A DNA stretch of 23,231 nt. Origin: Saccoglossus kowalevskii (lineage: Eukaryota; Hemichordata; Enteropneusta; Harrimaniidae). Location of the stretch: positions 31,597 through 54,827 of the forward strand of contig NW_003119933.1 of the NCBI RefSeq assembly GCF_000003605.2. Direction: 5' to 3'. This document shows positions 361 to 22,221 of the stretch, one piece after another. The notes under the pieces were generated by a model, which saw only the letters and a program-made list of their open reading frames with translations, was not told the origin of the DNA and made no database searches. A program made the translations under genes and the position numbers. Position 1 is the first letter of the stretch; every line of letters starts with the position of its first letter.

Positions 361-425
361 ATAAGGACAAAAGTAAGAGTGTATTCAATAAAACTAAGTG
401 ATATTTTTCTTTCATCATGTTACAG

Positions 426-549
426 ACTTTCTAAGAAATCCTGGTTTGGAAGTCTTATAGGTGCTGATAAAGAGGAAACAGTTTGTATGGTAATTCGTGA
501 TAAATCACTTAATGTTATTAAAGCCGATGTCGTCCATGCATTTTTATCA
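426..549 (+). CDS. BRSK: BRSK exon, KKSWFG block
   Basis: The acceptor is the AG at 424-425 after a T-rich tract; the exon opens on the third base of a codon and then reads LSKKSWFG. It ends with complete codons for HAFLS at 549, followed by donor GTAAGT at 550-555. The peptide begins the KA1-like domain of SAD kinases. Confidence 0.9.
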
Positions 550-2112
550 GTAAGTACAATATCATGAAATGTTACTGTGGATATACTGTAAAGTAGCGAC
601 CAGGCAAACCTTCATAATCTATTGTGTTTTGTGTCGTATCTTCTTTCAGGTGGTATAAATGTAACTATGACAACATGTGTTTACTGCAACTAAGCTTGAA
701 TGTAGAAACCACAGAGCGATGTATTTTGTAACATTGTTTGCTTGCGATGGTGAAACAATAAGGAATCCACTGTTAATAGAAATGACGATTCTCAAATTTA
801 ATAATGTTTTTTTTTTATCGTTCATGAGGTTTTTTGAAATCCAATATGTACCCCGTAATCCCCTGATGCATTTTTGTTACTTCATCATCATCATTCAGTA
901 CTACTCTGGAAATGTCAGCATCCTAGTTTGATAAATGCAGCGAAAAAAATCACCAATGTTTAAGAGTTATTCTTCATACGTGTAGCGCAATCCATTAAGC
1001 TAACAATGTATGAAATATCACTAAATATACATTACCATAGCAACACAACGGTAAATGGACTTTACTTACCTATGATCTATTGAAGATTGGTGGTCGTCAC
1101 AAATATATGCTTGACTTTTGTGAAATTTTGACTTCACAAATGCAATAAAATCATTGAATCACAAAAATTCCTCATAGTGAATATTAAGTTGTTTACAGTG
1201 TACATACAAAGATACTTACATGATTGCGCATGATTGGCTACCTAACTCTAAAACAGTCAGACCAATCAGAGAGCAGAGGTGTTTATATTATGCTTTGACT
1301 TGGTTGCAAATGTGTTGTATATTTGCACTCAATTTGAGTGCACAAGATTGTACCAACCACTGTGCTTTAATAGATATTCATGTGAAACTGAAAATGTCCC
1401 TGATACTTTGCATAAGTATTAGCATAAATTGATATAATTATATGATTTATATCTAGAATATTATTAGGTGGTGCAACTGATCACAATTTGTTTTTGATAT
1501 CAACAGATTCCTGATCTTACTCACAATGTGCAATCTCCCAATGTCTTCAAAGCAGAATACAAACGACCTGGTGGAAGCATGTTTGCTAAATCGATACGAT
1601 TTCAAATTGAAATTATGCAGCACGAAAGGGATACTAGTAAAGGAGACTGTGTCCATCTCGTAACTTTTACTCTCATATCAGGTGAGCTACTTAGATTTGT
1701 TAATAATGATGTACTGATGTACAACCCAATACACAGTACAATGGAATGTATTTTAAACTTGACAACCCAATGCACAGGACAGTGGAAATAAATTTAAGTA
1801 GGCGTGGATCTGTTTTCTTCTGCAGGTCAATCAAGACGATTTAAGCGCATTGTTGAAGTGATTCAGTCCCAGATGAATACAGCTAGAGGTGCTGAACTTT
1901 CACCTTTAGTAATAGCTGATGCGTTCAGTGACAGTACTAGTTCCGCCGGATCTGATCGTGTATCTCCCTCACCGCCACCCCACTCTGCCAACAGTGCAGG
2001 AGATGGGAATGACGTATTTGCTGATGAGAAGTGTAGTAGTCCGAAAGCAAACCTCCTCAGTGCTGGTGATAGTAACGGTACAAATGAGTTCAGTAGTTGT
2101 ACTGAACTATGA
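426..2112 (+). CDS. BRSK: BRSK/SAD-type serine/threonine kinase, C-terminal three exons (5' part outside window)
   Basis: These are the last coding exons of a brain-specific/SAD kinase, an AMPK-related kinase that acts in neuronal polarity and synapse organisation in animals where it has been studied. Exons are 426-549, 1507-1681 and 1826-2112, with stop TGA at 2110-2112; together they encode about 195 residues. The match rests on the family block KKSWFG, the segment IKADVVHAFLS, the following IPDLTH, then FKAEY, the strand VTFTLISG and the closing SRRFKRIVEVIQ helix. In known BRSK proteins this region is a KA1-like regulatory domain behind the kinase and UBA domains. All introns have GT/AG ends and the reading frame is kept (phase 0, then phase 1). 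The last roughly 75 residues are serine-rich and do not resemble vertebrate BRSK tails I remember. The kinase domain must lie left of position 1. BRSK1 versus BRSK2 cannot be assigned in an invertebrate. Confidence 0.93.
550..1506 (+). other. BRSK intron
   Basis: This intron begins GTAAGT at 550 and ends CAACAG at 1506. It holds no coding exon I can support; short open frames in it resemble nothing. It contains inverted CCAAT-type motifs around 1228-1270 (GATTGG then CCAATC), which may be chance. Confidence 0.8.
1507..1681 (+). CDS. BRSK: BRSK exon, middle of KA1-like domain
   Basis: The acceptor CAACAG ends at 1506, and the exon begins in phase 0 with IPDLTHNV, directly continuing HAFLS of the preceding exon as in other BRSK proteins. 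It includes VFKAEYKRPGG and KSIRFQIEI and ends at 1681 inside the glycine codon of TLISG, before donor GTGAGC. The exit phase is 1. Confidence 0.92.
1826..2112 (+). CDS. BRSK: BRSK terminal coding exon with Ser-rich tail
   Basis: The acceptor TTCTGCAG ends at 1825. The exon completes the split glycine and reads QSRRFKRIVEVIQSQM, the conserved last helix of the BRSK KA1-like domain. A tail of about 75 residues follows, rich in Ser, Asp, Asn and Pro with a short SPSPPP run, ending at TGA 2110-2112. The tail has no domain I recognise and is probably disordered. Confidence 0.92.
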
Positions 2113-10156: not shown

Positions 10157-10216
10157 ATGATCATTTTGTTGCTTAGTGTCATCCTGCAGTTGTCTGTTAC
10201 GCAAGGTGCACCAGAG
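10157..10216 (+). CDS. Paralogue A exon 1: signal peptide
   Basis: ATG at 10157 opens a hydrophobic stretch, MIILLLSVILQLSV, followed by TQGAPE, a typical secretory signal with likely cleavage near residue 17. The donor GTACAG at 10217 is somewhat weak, but the frame continues into exon 2 in phase 0. Confidence 0.75.
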
Positions 10217-13200
10217 GTACAGTAATTTAATAGTGTCACCATTAAATATGAGCATTATCTAGATATTATGGGATACGCCATGTGTCACATTTGAAACAGA
10301 CAACATCCTAATGTTTATCCTAATGTTGTGTACTACGTGGTGATTTGCCACCTTATTCTTTTCCGTGTGAGAGTTTTATGCGTACTGTTTATTCAAACAA
10401 AAAATAAGCAAGTTTGTTTTTCAGTTGTATTATTATATGACAAATGGTTTGAACTAATAATTTACAATAATAACATTTACCTAGCTTTTATATATCTGTT
10501 TTTTTATTTCAGTCTCACGCCGATCACAATATAGCTGTGAGAGCTGGTAAGTTAAGTGATTTTTCAATTTTCTAAATCTTACGTTAATTAGAAAATGCAT
10601 CATTGGATTGTCAGGTAATTGTCAGTGTCATGTCCACAAGGCCAAATACCACATGTCCTAACATAATTTCATATTGCCATTAAAATACCCGTAAATGGTA
10701 ATACTGTTAGCATAATCACGAATTCTGCTGTAAAAAAGTGTGCTAAAAGAATGGTGCACTATTTTATAAGAAGAAAATTTATAAGAAGTATTTCTCTAGG
10801 ATTGCTCAAAGATACACTGAAGGTTGTCGCAAAAGTATATAAACATTTAACGTTCCAGATTCACTGAAAACATAACATTCACATATCATATACATTGTTT
10901 GAATAATATATAATGAACGCATATTTATGCCTGTCTAGTCAATCAGGGACTGTATCCTTTGAGAAACAAATTAGTATGTTACTGAGGTTCTTAGTGATTC
11001 CAATTTATTTATTATTTGCACCAAATGTTAAATTGGTGATAGACCAACATCTAATATCAAATAAAAAAAATATGAAAGCTGCTAGGTCCAATAAATATAA
11101 TATAGTTCTTGATAATTGTCAATGTAACCAGATATTTGGGCCTTTTTCAATATAATGTCTATTCGTGTCTCTTAGAAGCATGCGTACGTGCCAAGGAAAC
11201 GCGTGTACGTGCCATGGACATGCCAGGCTTGATTTATTATGCGGAAACAGCATGATTGCAACTATGTATGAGATTGCGAAACCAGTAGTCATCTTATACT
11301 GCCATGTTAAAAGGTTGTTAATAATGTTGCACATCGCCGCAGACGCAACATAATTAGTTGTTGCAAATATAATTGCTCAAAAACTGTAAGCGAATCATTA
11401 GTAGCATAAATATGAATGTTAACTCAATCTACAGATAATTTGTATAAACTACCGTACTTGTGCAATAACAAATGTACCATTGTATTAAAAATGATTACCT
11501 AATTACTGATTAACTATCGGTATGATTTTTTTTATTATATTATTTAATTTAGTGACCGAAGCTCCATCGCCTTGCAGTCTCCTAGAATGTGTTGATGCGA
11601 CAACATGTTTTGGAACTAGTTTTTGTATATGTCCTACGAACTATCATTGGTTGGTGGGTACTGAGCTGTGCATTGGTAAGTTACACAATAAAATACGTTA
11701 ACTAAATGATTTTGAAGTGGACAAATAGACCAAGGTGCTGAATGATCAGCATAGCACTGCCTGTTGCTGTACAGTATTGTCTGTTGTTTCATTTCGATAT
11801 AGGTCTCGTGCGACCAGTGATGGATTTAATAGTAAGATTGGAAGTTGTGAGACCACTTCGCGAATTTACAACATTGATGGGATATTCTGCTTATTGAAAC
11901 TAACCATAAATCATCGAAATTCTAATTTTGGGAAGCTTATACGTCAGTTAGCGCATTAACTCTTCTTGGTAACCGCAGTCACAACACTCTTCATAATATA
12001 CATACCTCTTATGCGCCGCTTTGTATTCGCTTTGGGACAGGATCTCTTCTGGAGCATAAATGACGGGTCTTATCTTCTCCGCTTTGTGTACCTGTGTTGG
12101 TATGAAGTTAAAATGACCTTCTATAGTCAGTGGAAGCTAACTCTGGTGGCGTACATGATCTTTCCGCAGGTGTTATTGCCACCTAAAACCAAGTTGGTTT
12201 TTCGTGCACAAAGATTAGAAATCTAGTGGTCCAATTACACTCCAGATAAGCTACGTAGCCAAGAGCTCTAATGAGTTTTGTGGGAATGACTTCATCCACG
12301 GAGGCATTGTCCCCCAAGCAGCTCACATTGTCTGCAATAGTATTTCTAGCGTAGCGTTGTGGGTTGCCTCTTACGAACACAATTCGTATGAGCCCCTGAT
12401 GGATGGATTTATCCAACAGATTGATCCATCAATTTCACTCATAACACTAGTCACATACGCCCGGAATAAGGCCCACTTCATGGACATAGACGCTGGGGGA
12501 GTGAACCCAACAAGAAGACTTATTGCTGTTGCTCTGACGCCACGAGAAGTAAGGGATTAGCCGCACACCTGATATCATAGAAACACGCATACTCGAATAA
12601 CAAGCGGAAAATGTCCCATGGTCTGGTGAGCAGTCTATTGCCCTGCGGAGAACGGCCATGCTATACCTGTAATTGCCATAAACTTGTTATATGTCATATC
12701 ACCTGGCGCACCTTACATATGTGAGGGATGATGATGATTTATGTGTCCTGAAGAATGTCATACTCAGCGCAGCATTTTGATTTGACCAGAAAGACCTTGT
12801 TTCCCACTAGTCCTGTTATTGTTAGTAGCGAAGTCAGTATGCTTACTGGACAACTGCTGATGGGGAGCTCTCTGTGAATTCAGTGTCGTTGAATTACAGA
12901 CTCCCCAGCAATTGACAACTAAGAAAGGATTTTCTTGCCGTCTGGCTGGCCATAATCTATTTCTATGACTACTGATGGCGATGATTCGATGATTAGTACA
13001 ATGGGTGACAAGCGGGTCCATTGGAACCATCATATCCTTTTGTTGTAGATATATTCGAGCCTAGAGCTGTTGGTCATCTTCATATTCTGTTCTGTGGACC
13101 ATTGATCAATCTACAGATAGTGTCATTGTTCAACTGACAATAGTAGCCAGAGAGCCAACCATTTCCCTAGAGGGCTCATGGGTTGAGGCATCAGTCCAGT

Positions 13201-15742
13201 ACTAGATTCATTTCATGAGCCTTTTATGTACTGCTAAAATCAGTTGCACTCAAGCATTTGACCTGCAAGACAGTTTTTTCTTGTTAACCCTGGTTTTTGG
13301 TCTTTGGTTTGGCTCGATTTCTTGACTAAAAATCAAAACGCAGGATTTGACTTGTCTCCAATTTGTATTCCCCCTCTCACACAAGTTGCGGATACCAAGA
13401 TGATTTGTCTAGTTAGAGCCCTGGTAATATTCATATGATATCTTAGACCAAAATATACATATTGGTCGTCTGTCATGTGTCGCTGAAACAACATACAGCC
13501 ACATTCCCTACAACCATTAGCCATTGGGTAAAGTACACGATTACCAAAGCATACAAGTCTCCCCGACCCTCACATGTACCAGGTCAAGGGCCACCCGGTC
13601 ACTTGCAAGCGAGTCTGTGGATGGTCCACACGAGAAATACATAGCATGGATAAATGCAAAACCAGCTTTGGCTGCCACCTTTTAGGCGAGCAGTATGGTT
13701 ATCCCGATAATAAATTTAATTTCAGCATTTCTCAACCTCAGTTTACAGTTGTTGCAGTCCCCGGTAGAAGCATACTTTAGAACTCTGCCCATTGGATTTT
13801 CATTCAATAACTAGATATTGAATGACAGTATGATTGAACAAGTAAAATACACACATTCCGAGGGTAATTTTAAATTGCACTTAGTAATATCATACTAACT
13901 GCCTCCCATCACTTCAATCATTTGCAGATTCCATGGTTGCCAATTTAAGTTTAATATTGCCCACTTGGGGGAAGCTGGCACCAATAGCCTACTGTTGGCT
14001 CGAATTATCTTGGGCGATTTGCTCCCATTCTAACAGGTACTCGATCGGCATAAATAGTATTTTTCATGGCGGAAATCACTATTCATTCAGAGAATTTGGA
14101 TTATGTAGTCCTAGTCGCGCCATAAATGTTACAAAAATTCACATCTTTCGTTATCAACAATAACACAGTTCTAATACTATTTATGATGATGTGTTTAAAC
14201 TATCACCATCACTATTATCAAGTAGCTCCGCAACTTAAAACAGGGGGCGCTCTAGCACCAGCCTGCTGTTTCAAATACGTCTAAACGAGACGTAGGAATG
14301 AGATTCGCCATTTAAATTTAAATTTAAAATTTAACTTTCGGAATTCTTGTGAAGTTTATGTATTGGAAATATATTTTTAATACATACTTGTCGCGAGTTA
14401 ATAATTAGATGACATTACCCACATGTGTCTGCGAACTGTGTATAGTTACTGTATTTTGACACGTTTAACGCGATTATTTTAACATATGTTTCTCGGCGTT
14501 TGATTAGTTAACGATTGGCCCTGGAGGAAGCTCGACCCGATTTGAAAATTATAGTACTAGTAATAAGTTTTGTTGTATATGTTGCGTTTTATGTTGCCTA
14601 TTCTAAAGCAACATATAAAGACATTGTATATTCATGTACTAACATCCTCTCCCATAGATATCGACGAATGCGTGGAGGACCCAACTGCTTGTGTTAATGC
14701 TCACACATGTGTCAACACTGGTGGTTCCTTTGAATGTGGTTGCAACGAAGGATGGACACTTTCCCCAGAACAGATATGCGAAGGTAGCGTCTTTCTGTTG
14801 TGCTTGTTAGCTTGTTCAATATACAATATTTAATAACGCTTTTAACATGCATAAACTGATAGTCAATTATGCTTCCATGTTTCGACGATATGCATACTTA
14901 TGCAAATGAATATAAATGTGAGTGCCCTAATGTACAAACACGTATTATTTGTTTAGATATGTATTTCTTGTCTTTTAATATACACTTATTTCAACTAAAT
15001 AAATCCTGTTTCTTTTTAGACATTGACGAATGTGTTACTCCAGCAAACAATTGTCAACACACATGTAACAACACCATTGGTAGTTTTGAATGTCTGTGTG
15101 ATACTGGATATGAATTACTACCTGACGGATTTTCATGTTCACGTAAGTTGCAACATACTGTCCCCTCCAGTGTTGGTTTTCCGTGGTGCATGCTGCGTCA
15201 TGTTACATACGTCAGTGGTTTACCAAGTAATATATAGTAACATATCTTGTACACAAGATATTCGTGTATAATCGATTGACATGCACTGGCGTGAATTGTA
15301 AAAAAATGAAATTCGAGCATTATTAATATAATGTTCGATATTATGGAAGATAAATTAAACGATCTGCAAAAGTACGACTGGCTGTATTTGAATAATGATT
15401 TGTACACGATTCGTAGCACACCTATTCAATGTAAATATAAACGTATCAATGTCTTTCTTTTCAGAAAACGAAGTATCATGGGTGAAAGTCACGCTCTGTC
15501 AAATGTATTCAGTACGTACCGTAGCAGACGTGACTCTTGGTGACGCGGAACAGGGTTGCCTTGATGATGGATTTGCACTTCTAAGCATACAGAGCGCAAG
15601 AACCGGCGAATATCTCGACACCTTCCTTCAACAAACTGCTTCTGATCTGAGTTCCTATTGGACCACAGCGCAGTGTCCAGGCGATCCCAATGGCGGAGAT
15701 GCCCCGAACACCAAAAAAGACGGATACATATGTAAAGTGTAG
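10157..15742 (+). CDS. Secreted EGF / calcium-binding EGF / C-type-lectin-like protein (paralogue A)
   Basis: I assembled six exons: 10157-10216, 10513-10546, 11553-11675, 14658-14783, 15020-15142 and 15465-15742. They join in frame into 247 residues with stop TAG at 15740-15742. The protein has a signal peptide (about 1-17), a short linker, an EGF-like domain (39-71), two calcium-binding EGF domains (73-113 and 115-154) and a C-terminal four-cysteine domain (156-247). That last domain resembles a short C-type lectin fold (Cys 167, 187, 226, 245; core GFALLSIQS and a Trp near 221). It should be an extracellular protein, with Ca2+ held by the DIDEC motifs. The usual sugar-binding QPD/EPN and WND motifs are absent, so carbohydrate binding is doubtful. 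Every intron between domain exons is phase 1. A tandem paralogue follows at 18625. I do not recognise a named orthologue. Confidence 0.85.
10513..10546 (+). CDS. Paralogue A exon 2: short linker
   Basis: The acceptor TTTATTTCAG ends at 10512. The 34-base exon encodes SHADHNIAVRA and exits in phase 1 at donor GTAAGT. The paralogue has a matching exon reading FHADQHVAV, which supports this being real. Confidence 0.78.
10547..11552 (+). other. Paralogue A intron 2
   Basis: This is a 1.0-kb intron of similar length to its counterpart in the paralogue (18895-19915). I see no exon in it. A short imperfect direct repeat, GTACGTGCCA near 11190 and 11207, lies within a locally GC-richer patch at about 11180-11235. 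Confidence 0.7.
11553..11675 (+). CDS. Paralogue A exon 3: EGF-like domain
   Basis: This is a phase-1/phase-1 exon between acceptor TTTAATTTAG and donor GTAAGT. It holds six cysteines with spacing C-x4-C-x5-C-x5-C-x-C-x12-C, an EGF-type pattern without a calcium-binding DxDE start. It is about 89% identical in nucleotides to the exon at 19916-20038 (14 differences in 123 by hand count). Confidence 0.9.
11960..13790. other. GC-richer block, possible decayed transposon or pseudogene
   Basis: This part of the intron is visibly richer in G+C than the rest of the window and has longer broken open frames on both strands. On the minus strand, 12105 down to 11958 reads about 50 codons without a stop (FIPTQVHKAEKIRPVIY and onward). 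About 55 stop-free codons lie at 12550-12370 and a further frame at 12416-12183, all separated by stops or frame changes. I recognise no protein family in any frame and found no terminal repeats. It could equally be unconstrained DNA of different origin. Confidence 0.3.
14241..14251 (+). promoter_or_regulatory. CTCF-core-like motif
   Basis: CAGGGGGCGCT equals the core of the bilaterian CTCF consensus, although the 5' CCAC part is missing. It stands out in AT-rich intronic DNA. No binding can be inferred from one motif. Confidence 0.25.
14310..14336. repeat. (ATTTAA)n-like tract
   Basis: Short low-complexity tract ATTTAAATTTAAATTTAAAA, self-complementary. Confidence 0.6.
14658..14783 (+). CDS. 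Paralogue A exon 4: calcium-binding EGF domain 1
   Basis: The exon begins with the split codon of DIDEC and contains six cysteines, with CVNTGGSFECGC matching the Asp/Asn hydroxylation consensus CxNx4[FY]xCxC. This is the classic calcium-binding EGF signature. It is about 91% identical in nucleotides to 21076-21201 (11 differences in 126 by hand count). Confidence 0.93.
15020..15142 (+). CDS. Paralogue A exon 5: calcium-binding EGF domain 2
   Basis: DIDECV opens the exon and CNNTIGSFECLC again fits the calcium-binding and hydroxylation consensus; CDTGYELLPDG is a typical EGF C-loop. It is a phase-1/phase-1 cassette between acceptor CTTTTTAG and donor GTAAGT. No equivalent is found in the downstream paralogue. 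Confidence 0.93.
15465..15742 (+). CDS. Paralogue A exon 6: C-type-lectin-like C-terminal domain
   Basis: The acceptor CTTTTCAG ends at 15464. The exon encodes 92 residues ending DGYICKV and a stop. The pattern is C, 19 residues, C, a GFALLSI strand, an amphipathic helix (EYLDTFLQQ), YW, C, 18 residues, C. This follows the first half and the closing cysteines of C-type lectin domains, but it is 25-40 residues shorter and lacks WIGL and WND. Assignment to the fold is an inference. Confidence 0.75.
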
Positions 15743-15790
15743 CATTCTTTCTTGTCAGTGATGATGTTTTGTTCAAGAATAGTATGATTA

Positions 15791-15796
15791 AATAAA
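15791..15796 (+). terminator. Poly(A) signal of paralogue A
   Basis: AATAAA lies 49 bases after the stop codon at 15742; a second AATAAA occurs near 16035. The first would give a very short 3' UTR, much like the paralogue. Confidence 0.5.
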
Positions 15797-15799
15797 ATA

Positions 15800-18350
15800 A
15801 TTTAACACATCGGGTCATAATATAAAGTAAGAAGTGATAAAAGTGCACATCTTATCTAAACATGCAAATGAGCGCCGAGATCTCACTGAGAGCGAGATAT
15901 TTGTTTTCTGCTGCTTAGATATAATTCCATTCTCTGCTCAGGCTGTTGAACGCATTCGTTGTTGCATTGATCTATGTAACCATGGTGCGTGAGACAGTGA
16001 ACGCTAAATAACATTGTGCATTCCTTTCAATGAATAAATAATAAGCCCCATTCAAAACAACTTGAATTGTCTGTATTTTCTGTTTTAAAGTTATAAAATA
16101 TATAACGTCCAGGTTCTGACAAATAACGGTAGAAGCGCCCAACTTTGATGTGACTGGTTATATTATGGGGGAAATGGCACTAATTTATAATAAATGTCTG
16201 CGTTACTAGCACTCATATCGATTGGACATCGGTTGTGTTCGCGTGAGTCGAGTCTAAAACGTCGTTCACCATTTACTTTTTCATCACGGCGTAATGACGT
16301 AATCTGTGCTTTTTCACATACCACTAACAACCAGACCAATGTACTGTATGGTACAATAATTCTTGTTATACAAAATATTGAATTCACTACTTTGCGAGAT
16401 TATCAGCGAACTTAATTATACACATTGCTACATGAATATAATGTACGGTATCATCTTTGGAAGTGATTGGGATTTGTATTAAGAATGTGATCGACTTGTC
16501 AACAAAAACGAAACTCACACATTAAAATATATAAATATAACTAAAACATAGATTTGCGGAGTCAACCGTGCTGATCTAAAAACTCGCCGTTAATGACACG
16601 CGTATTTGATGTCGACGATCGTGTGCAATGTGCGCTTGTATATATTGGGATCCCCCTTGCTCAATTAAACTGAATAGATTCACTCATGAACTGCAGCTAG
16701 AATTTGTATGTGGTTCCACCTCTGTTGCTCGTGCTCATTAGAAATATGTCATATCACTGTTTTTGTAGCCGATAAACCGTGTGCTTAGCTCTCGTGTGTG
16801 TGTGTTACGATACCGACTCAAATGTAGAAATTTATACCCGTGTTATCATCGTATATAGTGTAACCTTATGCAATATGAACGAGACAAATTCGTGTTTATT
16901 ACAAACTAACATCAGTTTATGCAATAACATTTACAGAAAACATTAGCAGTTTCTATCGAAAATGAAATTGTCTATTAGTATGGCTTTGTGGACAATGTAG
17001 ATGTAGACAAATCTGCAACTCACTTCTTCGGCAGCCTCTGGTTAACTTCGGTGGTAATATACTTATGACTGAAACGTAATTGCTCGTTATTGGCTTTGAC
17101 CTCTGAACTATTCTGTCATTTAACAATGTCTTCCTTACTGACCGCTACTGAACAAGACGTTGGTTCTGCCTTTCAGTCCGACAACTAACTACTTCACGAT
17201 TACTTGTACTGACTGTTACGACTTTCTTACAGCGGTAGATTACTGTGTAACAGGACTAATTCAACTGTTGTTGGCCGACTAACTGACTGACTGACTGAGA
17301 CCGAAGTTTCGGGAAAAAACACGACATCATCTTCCCATGTTCAGACGGACGTCGTGTAATGTTTCAGTATGTTCTTTGTGTATCTTTACAACAGTTTGGC
17401 CAAATGCAAAGAAACTTTATACATAATTATTTGTTTGTTGCAGACGATGCGACCGCGTACTGTCTGAGTGCATACTTTTCTGTATCCTTCACATAACCTT
17501 ATTATTATACATCTTTTCCTCCCACGAATGCATCACGGGAATACCGAAATACAAAAAGTTTAGAACAGATTGACTTTTTGTATGGCGTCCGGCTGCCATG
17601 TTTTGTTTTTATTATTAGAGGACGCCTATGCGCGTAATCGTCCATATTTGGAATTTATGGCGTTACGGTCACAGATGTATAATAATATTAATTAACTTGT
17701 TTTCGGCTTCATTTTGTTTTCTAAGCACTTTCATCATCTCAATATGCGCTCGCTACGTATGTTTTTCCTTACACTCTTTGCATACACTTAATGCAATTTC
17801 TCGGTTACGATGCGTACAACTCAATTTACACATCTTTTTTTAAAGCTTGTTTTTAATCGAAAAGAATCTAGTGTCACTGAAAGCAACTACTCAAAATATA
17901 ATTTTCTTACATACTTGGTTCTCTTGTTTAGAGTTTGTAATTATGGTTATTGTTCGACGTTTTCTCATTCCCCGATTCACGTATTCATTGACATATTTTT
18001 TCATGCATTTTGTAAAGGAGTGGCAACACCTGACATATGTCATGATATTATTTTGAACAAAAGTTATAACACTCGCAATCAACGTCACAATGTATCATAG
18101 ATTACAGAGACACAGGGATGTTGCAAACCATATACATTCAGCGACGAATTACCCAATAGAATTTTGATTTAATGGTGAAAGTAAATGACAGTCGTAAAGG
18201 ACATGTTCAGCATGAATGGTGTGTGAAAATTGACTTCCCTATGCTCAAATTACCTCTACACAAAGACCCTAAAAGAACCATATGGCCTGGGAAAGGTTGA
18301 CTGTGTTTAATACAATTACTTTCAGCTTGTTTCAGTAAGTAATTGATACA
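15800..18350. other. Intergenic region between the two EGF genes
   Basis: About 2.5 kb lies between the first poly(A) signal and the second gene's candidate promoter. No open frame resembles a known family. It contains a short ACTG tetranucleotide tract and one octamer ATGCAAAT at 15862-15869. Nothing else is supportable. Confidence 0.6.
17278..17298. repeat. (ACTG)n microsatellite
   Basis: About five imperfect tetranucleotide copies in intergenic DNA. Confidence 0.8.
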
Positions 18351-18356
18351 AGTACT

Positions 18357-18364
18357 TATATAAG
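18357..18364 (+). promoter_or_regulatory. Candidate TATA box of paralogue B
   Basis: TATATAAG sits in the 12-base palindrome ACTTATATAAGT and lies about 260 bases upstream of the ATG at 18625, leaving room for a 5' UTR of roughly 235 bases. It is plausible but untested. Confidence 0.35.
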
Positions 18365-18624
18365 TAGTAGCTTATATTAAGTGCAAGGGTCTTCTGAGCT
18401 CAATGTCGTCAATTCATTAATACCCTGCTGTATTGCGTCTGTTTATTCGTGCGAGGTTTTGATACATTCTTTTAGTTTTAGTGATATATGTGATCTTTAT
18501 TCATCGCACTTTGCGTTGCCCCCTAATTCTACCAAGATTATATATTTCACGACCATTCTAAGTACGGATTGCTCATACATTGATACATTGGTATTAGCTT
18601 TACCGAACCATGCGAATACCCACC

Positions 18625-18696
18625 ATGGAAGTCCGGGTATCAGTGTTGTGCCTCGGTCTCATTCTACATCTAAATCCACTGCAATGTACATCAAAG
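18625..18696 (+). CDS. Paralogue B exon 1: signal peptide
   Basis: CACCATGG gives a near-ideal start context at 18625. The 24-codon exon reads MEVRVSVLCLGLILHL and on to LQCTSK, a convincing secretory signal. It ends in phase 0 at AAAG/GTAATG, which matches the phase-0 start of exon 2 at 18849. A longer open frame overlapping in another phase (18381-18755) has no such support and is best ignored. Confidence 0.75.
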
Positions 18697-21600
18697 GTAA
18701 TGTAAACTTCCTGATCATGTCGAGGCAATCACGAAGGTTACTATGCCAACAATAAGAACACCTATGCCCACCCTGTGCGATATTACAAAACAAAGTGATA
18801 TTTGTTAGGGATTTAGTTAGATTCACATATTTGTTATGTTTTCTTCAGTTTCACGCAGACCAACACGTGGCTGTCAAACAGGAGCAGATGGGAGGTAAGT
18901 ATCTAGAGTAATTTACATTTATATATTAAATATGATATATTTTATTACCATAAACATTGATAAATAAGCATTTCTGTAATAGCCTGTGCCTTATTTATGT
19001 TATGTTATAACAGTTTACAAATGCCTAAGTGAACATAAAATCAAACAAATTTGCAGAATGGAGGAAAATAGTAAAATAATGACCAGTCTATGTACTTGAA
19101 AACGTGAATAGAAAGCCTCATCCCTTGCCATAACACATAAAGTGTCATTAAGCGATTTGTGTATATAGTTTCTGTGTTCAGACGGGTCTGTTCTGCTCGA
19201 ACCAGCCTTGTTTGAAGAGTAATTTTATTTCGTGAACAATGCCTACTTTATAGCGTAACGACGAATATTTATTTCCTCCGTTTTGTAAACTATAGTGCAA
19301 TGACCTTGGCTGAATCATAAATCTATTCTATTCAAATGGTCGTATACATAAATAATAAAGAATGGTTTTATCAACAGAAAGTACGAATAGTAATATTACA
19401 GTAACTACGTTTGTACGGAATAAAAGAATACAATGTTCACATTCGAGTCACGCGTAAACACAGGACAACAGTAGAAAATTGATTCTCGTCTCGAGACGAG
19501 TATTGGTTCCGAAAAACAAACAAACAGACGCTGTTGACAGAGGTAGGAATTTTCAAATAGATGACGCGTTATTTGGGCAGATTTTCGGCTCTAGCCAGGC
19601 TGCCCGTTTGAACACAGTAACTTCTTCCTTACAATGGCATTTAGTAACATTGTCATTTATGTTAGACGAAAATTTCGGTTGTGATATAACATAACAATTG
19701 CTGATGCGATCAATTCAAATTAAAATACTAGGAAACACCAAAACGTTCTGAATCAGGAGTCATTTTGGAATATGCAATGACATAGGCTGGGGATTTTTTT
19801 CTATAGCTAAGACTGGTTTGAAATGTTTATATTATGTTTGCTGTTATTTAGGTATTTTTTGTATACTGAAAGCATCAAATTGTAACGTCATTACACTTGT
19901 CTTTGTTTTCGTTAGCAACTGAAGCTCCATCACAGTGCAGTCTTCTAGAGTGTGTTGATGCGACATTATGTTTTGGAACTGATTTTTGTATATGTCCTAC
20001 GAACTATCAGTGGTTGGTGGGTACGGAGCTGTGCATTGGTAAGTTACACATTATTTGTATAGTAATAATTTTTTTTGGGGGGAGGCCAAGGGTTATTTTC
20101 GTTCAACGTAATTGCAATATTTTTTTGTTCGTACAACGTAAAATGAATTCTGTAATCACAGGCTAGACGTACAACCTAATCAATCAAATATTTTTTTCGT
20201 ACAGCGTAAAAATGTGTAATTTTTCTCGGTACGTACAAGAATTTACATCCAAATAAAAAAAGTCGTAAAGAATAATCCTGGGAAATTAAATTTTCGAAAC
20301 TGTAAAACGACTAGATGACACAATTCACGGCAAAATGCAATTATCACTGTAAACTGTAAAAACGTCTTTTTTTCCTTGTAAATTGTAAAAAGCCCTTTTT
20401 ATTTCCCGTAAAACAGTACCAACTACCCCCTTGTCCCTCCCCTCATTTTGAAGTGGACAAATAGATTTGTGTATATATGGTCATATGAATGTAATAAGTG
20501 GGAACAGAAATATACATTGCCACTTCAGTTATTTTTTGTCTCTGACAAATAGCACAAATAAGAAATAATATGATTATCGTTAAAAAATCATCTTGCTTGC
20601 TTGCTTTGTATGCGCTATTAATTCTAAGCAGTGACGTAATTCGTGTAAGATTGTGTGCGCGCGCACCATGTTCCATTCATCCACCAAGTCACGTAATATG
20701 CAAATTTAAATTAACAAATAGCAACACACACCTCGCAAGGGACAAAAAACTTTTTTTCGCGATCACTTTTTCATTTTGTAATAACCGCGTTTCGTATAAT
20801 AAAACTTGTAAGCAAGCCTAGTTAAATTATTAAATGGACTAAAAAAATAATCAATCAGTGTGACATTGGCCCTATTTTCAGTATTTCTTTTATTTTGTTA
20901 AATACTATAATTAAACATTACATATTTTGATAAGGATGAGTAGATAATGGCGATTTACAGAATCAACTACATTGTATTGATAATCTAAACACGTTCTAAG
21001 AGTAGCTGTTGAACAGTCGTCTGCTGTTCTTATCTGATGTCCATGATCATTATATTAATTGATTCCGTACCATAGATATCGACGAATGCGTAGAGGACCC
21101 AACTGCTTGTGTTAATGCTCACACATGTGTCAACCTTGGTGGTTCATATGAATGTGGTTGCAACGAAGGATGGATACTTACCCTAGAAAACACATGCGAA
21201 GGTACCATTAACATTCTATTTTTGCTCGTTTAAAAACCTATAACAGCAAGAAATAGATAAATCCAAATTCTTTCATTATTAAAATCTTCCAGTCACACCT
21301 ATTGGACTGGAATGCGAAGTGAAGGGAAAGTGAAATCTACAAGTGTTTTTGTATATCTTGAGAACAATTATTGTAGAGTTTTTCAAATGTTTTTCTCCGC
21401 GTCGTGATACCATCTACCCTTACGTCACCAAACCTGTTTAAGTAACATCACTCGCATGTTTCAAATGAAAAAATTAATGTTCGTGTCATTCAACCAAGAA
21501 CATGTACACATACACCAACAATTGTGTAACTCATAATTGTAACTCAAATCGTCACTGGTCATATCGACACTACGAACCTAGTATACAACATCATTTAACC

Positions 21601-21985
21601 CATTAATTGGCACACTGAGTCACAACTCTTACACATATATTCCGTTCTCTTATTTCATATTTTTCTCCAACATGCGTGTCCTTCCGTAACAGAAGATACA
21701 GCTGGACCCAAAGACTACTTGAGAGTATGCAGTAAATACCACGTATTTATAGAGGATGGCGTTACTTTCATGGATTCCCAGAAAGGTTGCGATGACAATA
21801 ATTTAGAGCTTTTATCAATACCGAATGAAATATTTGCCACAAACATCGAAACGTATCTTCAAGGAATTGACATAAATTACAGCTTGGATGATTTTTGGTA
21901 CATGACCAAGTGTGGTGAAAATCCTAACAGCAATGGACAAGCTGGGGATACCAGAGATGGATATATTTGTGGGTTCAAGAACTAA
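18625..21985 (+). CDS. Secreted EGF / calcium-binding EGF / C-type-lectin-like protein (paralogue B)
   Basis: I assembled five exons: 18625-18696, 18849-18894, 19916-20038, 21076-21201 and 21693-21985, which join in frame into 219 residues ending TAA at 21983-21985. Order: signal peptide (about 1-22), linker, EGF-like domain (47-79), one calcium-binding EGF domain (81-121) and a four-cysteine C-type-lectin-like domain (123-219; Cys 135, 155, 196, 215). Cysteine spacing in the last domain matches paralogue A (19, 40 and 18 residues between cysteines, against 19, 38 and 18). The second calcium-binding EGF exon of paralogue A is missing, and the join stays in frame because those exons are phase 1 at both ends. 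The central exons are nearly identical to paralogue A while the last exon has diverged strongly. The product is expected to be secreted; no orthologue name is recognised. Confidence 0.82.
18849..18894 (+). CDS. Paralogue B exon 2: short linker
   Basis: The acceptor TTTTCTTCAG ends at 18848. The exon encodes FHADQHVAVKQEQMG and exits in phase 1 at GTAAGT. It matches exon 2 of paralogue A in position, phase and the HAD..VAV-like pattern, with four extra codons. Confidence 0.8.
18895..19915 (+). other. Paralogue B intron 2
   Basis: This is a 1.0-kb intron with GTAAGT and TTCGTTAG ends. No exon or clear repeat is visible in it. Confidence 0.7.
19916..20038 (+). CDS. Paralogue B exon 3: EGF-like domain
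   Basis: This 123-base phase-1/phase-1 exon is the same length as in paralogue A. The six cysteines and the ending NYQWLVGTELCI are conserved; 37 of 42 residues match paralogue A. Confidence 0.92.
20055..20444. mobile_element. Intronic insertion with G/C-rich inverted ends (MITE-like)
   Basis: Compared with paralogue A, about 390 bases are extra here. In paralogue A only 33 bases separate the donor from the shared block starting ATTTTGAAGTGG, against about 406 here. The ends are roughly inverted: GGGGGGAGGCCAAGGG at 20077 and, on the other strand, AGGGGAGGGACAAGGG from 20443. Inside are repeated short motifs of the type CGTACAACGTAAAA and CTGTAAACTGTAAAAA. There is no coding capacity. The alternative is a deletion in paralogue A. 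Confidence 0.45.
20655..20666. repeat. Perfect GC palindrome
   Basis: GTGCGCGCGCAC is a 12-base perfect palindrome of alternating purine and pyrimidine in the intron, capable in principle of Z-DNA. It is possibly chance. Confidence 0.5.
21076..21201 (+). CDS. Paralogue B exon 4: calcium-binding EGF domain
   Basis: DIDECVEDPTACVN and CVNLGGSYECGC carry the calcium-binding and hydroxylation consensus. The exon has the same 126-base length as paralogue A exon 4, and 35 of 42 residues match. The donor is GTACCA, weaker than its counterpart's neighbours but with the correct phase. Confidence 0.92.
21202..21692 (+). other. Paralogue B last intron
   Basis: This 491-base intron occupies the place where paralogue A has the second calcium-binding EGF exon. 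I looked for a relic of DIDEC or of a CxNx4[FY]xCxC pattern in all three forward frames and saw none. Confidence 0.7.
21693..21985 (+). CDS. Paralogue B exon 5: C-type-lectin-like C-terminal domain
   Basis: The acceptor CCGTAACAG ends at 21692. The exon encodes VCSKYHVFIEDGVTF, then LELLSIPNE, ETYLQ, DDFWYMTKC and DGYIC. About 31% of residues match paralogue A by hand alignment, yet all four cysteines, LLSI, the aromatic-Trp pair and DGYIC are kept. As in paralogue A, WND-type ligand motifs are absent. Confidence 0.78.
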
Positions 21986-22111: not shown

Positions 22112-22221
22112 CGGCTTGGAATCACTGGTGTATATTGAATATATAATTAGTGCACTGTATCATCGGCTTGGAATCACTGGTGTATATTGAATATATAATT
22201 AGTGCACTGTATCATCGGCTT
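22112..22221. repeat. Perfect 52-bp tandem duplication
   Basis: The unit starting CGGCTTGGAATCACTGG runs from 22112 to 22163, repeats without change from 22164 to 22215, and a third copy is cut after CGGCTT. Zero differences imply a recent event or an assembly artefact. Confidence 0.95.

Follow-up and report, generated by a model that had tools for sequence, protein, structure and literature searches.

How two neighbouring genes can be nearly alike in two central exons and share little else is the question raised by a 23,231-nucleotide (nt) stretch of the genome of the hemichordate Saccoglossus kowalevskii (assembly GCF_000003605.2, contig NW_003119933.1, here C1271:31597–54827), which we refer to as the window. 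It holds two tandem genes on the forward strand, A (6 exons, 247 amino acids) and B (5 exons, 224 amino acids), which show AG/GT splice sites and open reading frames and encode proteins that begin with a hydrophobic leader, continue with EGF modules and end in a CTLD-derived domain; all results on this pair concern one genome and one haplotype, with gene models made by hand. A preliminary description had reported identities of about 89% for exon 3, about 91% for exon 4 and, at the protein level, about 31% for the C-terminal exon, and had offered as explanations gene conversion of the central exons, diversifying selection on the terminal domain or a swap of that domain. Our analysis favours the view that EGF exons 3 and 4 of old tandem EGF/CTLD paralogues were homogenised by interlocus (ectopic) gene conversion in short tracts, a reading to which we assign a probability of roughly 0.72.

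Recalculation reproduced the reported values: exon 3 is 88.6% identical between A and B (14 of 123 nt differ; silent distance dS 0.24), exon 4 is 91.3% identical (11 of 126 nt; dS 0.08), and the last exon shows 27 identical residues among 89 aligned (31.0% by BLAST); the outer coordinates of the pair, 10157–21985, were likewise correct. Exons 3 and 4 taken together display a dS of 0.157 (bootstrap 0.06–0.29) and a replacement distance dN of 0.086 (Nei-Gojobori), whilst in the last exon the proportion of differing silent sites (pS) is 0.78, with dS saturated (bootstrap lower bound 1.36), and the corresponding replacement proportion (pN) is 0.46, with a dN of 0.72. Exon 2 is similarly diverged over its first nine codons (pS 0.77). 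On simple counts over about 53–55 silent sites, exons 3 and 4 differ at 7.5 of 53.0 sites versus 43.9 of 54.5 for the last exon (Fisher p 3.6e-12), and codons for the same amino acid differ in 7 of 68 versus 16 of 27 cases (p 2e-6); when the silent differences were permuted along the coding sequence, 0 of 10,000 permutations reached the observed block. No difference in silent divergence was found between exon 3 and exon 4 (p 0.25).

Protein selection does not produce such a step at silent sites, and the age of the shared ancestry thus varies from exon to exon: that of exons 3 and 4 is far younger than that of the surrounding DNA. A block of low silent divergence within old paralogues, as expected under interlocus gene conversion, is present in A and B. 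Equal silent divergence had been proposed in the preliminary description as the refuting test; run here, it gave very unequal values, so that recent exchange in the central exons is supported. The two other proposals fared worse. Diversifying selection on the last exon is not supported for the domain as a whole, since dS is saturated there and pN lies below pS, a comparison in which site-specific selection would be hidden; a swap of the last exon was rejected as unneeded, since A, B and a further gene of the cluster, D, have homologous end exons. The last exon of B is nearer to that of D (37% and 41% identity in two comparisons) than to that of A (29% and 31%), as expected of old paralogues.

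Introns and borders of the alike block

The intron alignment recommended in the preliminary description bears on where this likeness ends. Strong DNA alignments between A and B comprise exons 3 and 4 with a few flanking bases and a perfect 21-nt match in intron 3, all others being at chance level; the scores for introns 1, 2 and 4, distal intron 3, 1 kb of upstream sequence and the 3' flanks fell within the range of 40 shuffles. With introns simulated at a silent distance of 0.157 or 0.29, all 60 runs outscored the observed value in each of four comparisons; at 0.5 the counts were 60, 51, 60 and 50 of 60 runs. Copied introns would thus be detectable, and the failure of the real ones to align is informative on the restriction of the likeness to exons. 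Moving outward from exons 3 and 4, the two genes have 5–10 bases in common in the first 10 nt and 1–7 in later 10-nt bins; the first 10 nt beyond exons 2 and 6 have 6–8 in common (splice signals), a similar level. The outer borders of the alike block lie at or within exons 3 and 4.

Intron 3 is where the conversion reading fits least well. Two perfect matches, of 12 and 21 nt, occur in the same order in both genes (33 of 33 nt). Beyond them the G+C content (GC) of the A intron, in 100-nt windows, is 0.44 from position 11730, 0.32 in the next window and then mostly 0.37–0.54. Part of the mismatch could be put down to an insertion in A, which would leave the unmatched part of the B intron unexplained. 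Nine open reading frames in intron 3 of A gave no Pfam match above cutoff and two below it, and a transposon protein was dropped as a candidate; neither intron 3 contains clear terminal repeats, only short inverted pairs. Comparison of the intron parts with sampled sequence from the same genome gave two short repeat matches, none of them in intron 3. The intron may thus reflect either a single tract with subsequent disruption or separate tracts for the two exons.

Related exons in the cluster and elsewhere

Further EGF genes, C to F, are found on the same contig (Table 1). D, E and F terminate in CTLD-type exons, and another exon of this type lies near 138.2 kb; in case of gene C, with three EGF exons at about 72.7–77 kb ahead of the convergent gene D, no CTLD-type exon was found, and the gene is perhaps truncated. 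C and D form an inverted pair 20–27 kb downstream, in which the second EGF exons are 91% identical with a pS of 0.30, the first and third exon pairs having values of 0.80 and 0.76. Recurrence of the low-pS pattern in this inverted pair supports conversion within the cluster, although the contrast is weaker than in A and B (codons for the same amino acid differ in 8 of 39 versus 22 of 44 cases, p 0.006). Here the alignment of the second EGF exons extends 76 nt, with gaps, into the upstream intron. Exon pairs of the cluster are mostly 50–70% identical, and its other EGF exon pairs are saturated at silent sites.

A survey of 14 stretches, containing 109 EGF exons (domain E ≤0.01, minimum 5 cysteines and 33 amino acids) and 1,211 within-stretch pairs, placed these values in a wider context. 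The stretches were picked by their match to the A protein, with 150 of 564 candidates scored, and given this preselection the counts do not represent a genome-wide rate. A pS below 0.40 was obtained for 7 of the 1,211 pairs, with an eighth at 0.40; the two lowest are those of A and B. These eight pairs are located on C1271 (3), C1101 (3) and C3324 (2). One-sided intron homology accompanies three of the eight, over 68, 76 and 26 nt, the 95th percentile of the background being about 16 nt (60 pairs). For exon 3 of A and B the upstream reach was 27 nt, 23 nt of which are exon sequence clipped by the profile, and the downstream reach of 16 nt equals background. No third close copy of exon 3 or 4 was present among the matches listed in the search with the A protein.

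On C1101 the introns beside repeated EGF exons align with 80–88% identity. This contig also carries a chimeric EGF exon (L045:4991-5288), 140 nt of which are 95% identical to one exon, whilst the right part together with about 120 nt of intron is 87% identical to another: exchange inside an EGF exon has thus occurred in this genome. As a separate observation, L010:1724-1883 (C2261) and L029:769-934 (C3647) form a 166-nt alignment of 89% identity, an 84-nt part of which matches a second place at 92%.

Conversion and its alternatives

On the favoured reading, A and B are old tandem members of an EGF/CTLD gene cluster: conversion in short tracts homogenised exons 3 and 4, and saturating drift affected the rest, namely the leader, exon 2, the introns and the end exon. 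Recombinational repair would be the probable agent, and the exons would have become the converted units by being the last long stretches of homology; the outcome would be secreted proteins whose stem stays uniform and whose head can diverge. Several points weigh against this interpretation. The junction-side parts of exons 3 and 4 differ at only 3 of 115 nt versus 22 of 134 in the outer parts (6 of 300 permutations), which suggests one recent tract through intron 3, yet 604 nt of intron 3 of B are without a partner in A. Homologous recombination usually needs more than the roughly 125 nt that these exons offer, and at 50–70% identity they would hardly recombine, so that exchange must have continued since the exons were alike. 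GC at third codon positions is not raised in the way that biased conversion might raise it, and GC-biased conversion was dropped. Finally, the case for concerted evolution comes from a single assembly.

The suggestion of a single tract leads to the possibility that exon 3, intron 3 and exon 4 were copied together in one recent segmental event (duplicative insertion or exon shuffling), intron 3 being later broken by insertions and deletions in both genes. This would account for the two perfect intron matches and their order, for a most alike part that spans the exon 3/4 junction and for the GC of the A intron, which is raised from about the end of the match. We nevertheless consider such a copy unlikely: the alike block has its outer limits at or inside exons and not in introns 2 and 4, which would be rare for random breakpoints, the unmatched intron parts demand several large replacements within a short time, and neither terminal repeats nor the reading frames of the A intron point to an inserted element. 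A reverse-transcribed spliced transcript, serving as template to homogenise exons 3 and 4 without introns, would explain both a likeness bounded by exons and its continuity across the junction in the mRNA. However, a tract spanning this junction should delete intron 3, which both genes retain; the intron also matches at two places, and the C/D island and one on C1101 extend to one side into alignable intron, over 76 and 68 nt, all of which makes this template very improbable.

Slighter still is the chance that no exchange took place and that strong selection, silent sites included, held exons 3 and 4 alike whilst the remainder diverged faster. Both exons do encode disulphide-rich EGF modules; however, exon 4 carries 9 replacement and 2 silent changes, the reverse of constraint, so that its likeness does not stem from protein constraint, which was rejected on this basis. 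The silent-site saturation of the other EGF exon pairs in the cluster is equally at odds with it, and we found nothing that would hold silent sites under constraint. We regard as least probable of all a recent duplication of the whole gene with strong diversifying selection on the last exon and fast intron turnover: the tandem order and common exon 2 motif agree with it, but both the last exon and exon 2 show saturation at silent sites, and introns at the silent distance of exons 3 and 4 would align. Short-tract conversion can also be taken further, with EGF exons as exon-sized units of concerted evolution whose modules are swapped between tandem and inverted genes, with borders near splice sites and perhaps via an RNA-derived template, such that the stem stays uniform whilst head and introns diverge; this extension is speculative and, in our estimation, also unlikely.

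Gene conversion itself is an already known process; what varies here is that it would affect individual EGF exons whose introns are not shared, both in a tandem and in an inverted pair. Mammalian TLR1/TLR6 resemble A and B as tandem paralogues in which conversion keeps one region alike and another diverges, but that case draws on trees of nine species and about 300 converted amino acids, compared to one genome and EGF exons of about 125 nt here (PMC2077338). For Drosophila Amylase, concerted evolution of coding sequence only is described, also in inverted pairs; unlike here, orthologues were compared, and the whole coding sequence is alike instead of two of several exons (PMC3924832). BMP8A/B, DDX19A/B and TUBG1/2 of mammals are mosaic pairs of concerted and divergent exons much like A and B, although their conversion fragments take in introns whereas the introns of A and B are not alike (PMC2720389). 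Likeness that stops at exon edges is unusual, and our literature search found no earlier report of this for EGF exons, a negative that carries little weight. Mosaic paralogues are easily taken for a product of selection; here the silent sites indicate recent exchange between genes, with a unit down to one EGF exon. If this is general, EGF-rich clusters would have exon-by-exon histories for which whole-protein trees and dates mislead, and a conversion-prone stem joined to a freely diverging head would offer a simple route of diversification for secreted binding proteins.

Gene models and end domain

Table 1. Features of the EGF/CTLD gene cluster. Genes A and B are given in window numbering, genes C–F in kb of contig C1271.
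Feature	Position	Strand	Remarks
Gene A exon 1	10157..10216	+	Start codon and hydrophobic leader; open spliced model, GT donor; hydropathy peak at residue 1
Gene A exon 2	10513..10546	+	SHADHNIAV motif; spliced model
Gene A exon 3	11553..11675	+	EGF-like module, six cysteines; copied exon
A intron 3, first 12 nt	11676..11687	+	Identical to B 20039–20050
A intron 3, 21 nt	11709..11729	+	Identical to B 20445–20465
A intron 3, remainder	11730..14651		No B counterpart; GC mostly 0.37–0.54 to about 14130
Gene A exon 4	14658..14783	+	Calcium-binding EGF module (EGF_CA); copied exon
Gene A exon 5	15020..15142	+	Third EGF module; B counterpart not found
Gene A exon 6	15465..15742	+	CTLD-derived end domain and stop codon
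Gene B exon 1	18610..18696	+	Start codon and hydrophobic leader
Gene B exon 2	18849..18894	+	FHADQHVAV motif
Gene B exon 3	19916..20038	+	EGF-like module; copied exon
B intron 3, block	20051..20444		Between the two A-matching stretches
B intron 3, remainder	20466..21069		No A counterpart
Gene B exon 4	21076..21201	+	Calcium-binding EGF module; copied exon
Gene B last exon	21693..21985	+	CTLD-derived end domain and stop codon
EGF gene C	from 72.7 kb	+	
EGF gene D	80.8–77.2 kb	-	
EGF gene E	86.4–89.2 kb	+	
EGF gene F	122.3–125.5 kb	+	

The leader exons are unequal in length (60 nt in A, 87 nt in B); in both proteins the N-terminus shows the strongest hydropathy, with no later stretch as strong on this measure, and both are predicted to be secreted. 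The HAD motif pattern of exon 2 is confined, in the contig sequence searched, to A and B. Pfam EGF_CA was matched above its cutoff of 27 bits by A (69.9 bits, 2 stretches) and B (35.3 bits); the six cysteines of exon 3 stand in EGF order, whilst the A exon 3 peptide alone gave no Pfam match. Comparison of the A and B sequences revealed neither a B counterpart of A exon 5 nor a remnant of it in intron 4 of B.

A domain of about 90 amino acids is common to the end exons of A, B and D. Their joint profile matched, among CTLD chains in the PDB, the mannose receptor (E 1.8e-4) and the PLA2 receptor (E 6.3e-8, a whole-chain score with no single stretch passing), and hhalign aligned it to gene F with a probability of 96 over 60 columns; F itself, with two exons joined by eye, displays a full CTLD (Pfam E 2.3e-15). 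It is the first CTLD lobe that the shared domain matches. From the conserved W to the YIC motif, the segment forming the long CTLD loop in which we take the calcium and sugar site to lie, A, B and D have 19–21 residues versus about 55 in F (counted by eye). Judged by sequence, these end domains are without the long-loop segment of ordinary C-type lectins, and calcium-dependent sugar binding is thus unlikely. Pfam Lectin_C gave no match for A or B, which we therefore do not class as C-type lectins; among A, B and D a single match appeared, at E 0.021 and below the cutoff. Of the earlier lectin-like assignment, the resemblance to the first CTLD lobe stands, whilst the missing loop and the absent Lectin_C match speak against the remainder; that the genes belong to a recognition family, as also proposed, may be the case. 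EGF modules alongside a CTLD are known from lecticans and group XIV proteins of the CTLD superfamily. The cluster resembles these in combining EGF modules with a CTLD-related domain, in full form in F, and A, B and D differ from them in the absent long loop. The AlphaFold2 model of the B end domain is poor, with a mean predicted local distance difference test score (pLDDT) of 46.

The remainder of the window holds several minor features. Positions 1–260 form a minisatellite with a 22-nt unit in about 8–11 copies, and positions 421–2112 (+) contain the 3' part of a kinase gene resembling BRSK1/2, where translation of three exon pieces gave matches to the solved structures of the C-terminal domains in BRSK1 (E 3.7e-36) and BRSK2. 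The spacer between A and B (17445–17641) shares two pieces of about 85% identity with a sequence near gene F (L043:2840-2976), probably a dispersed repeat, and directly past gene B a 52-nt unit is present in two perfect tandem copies (22112–22215).

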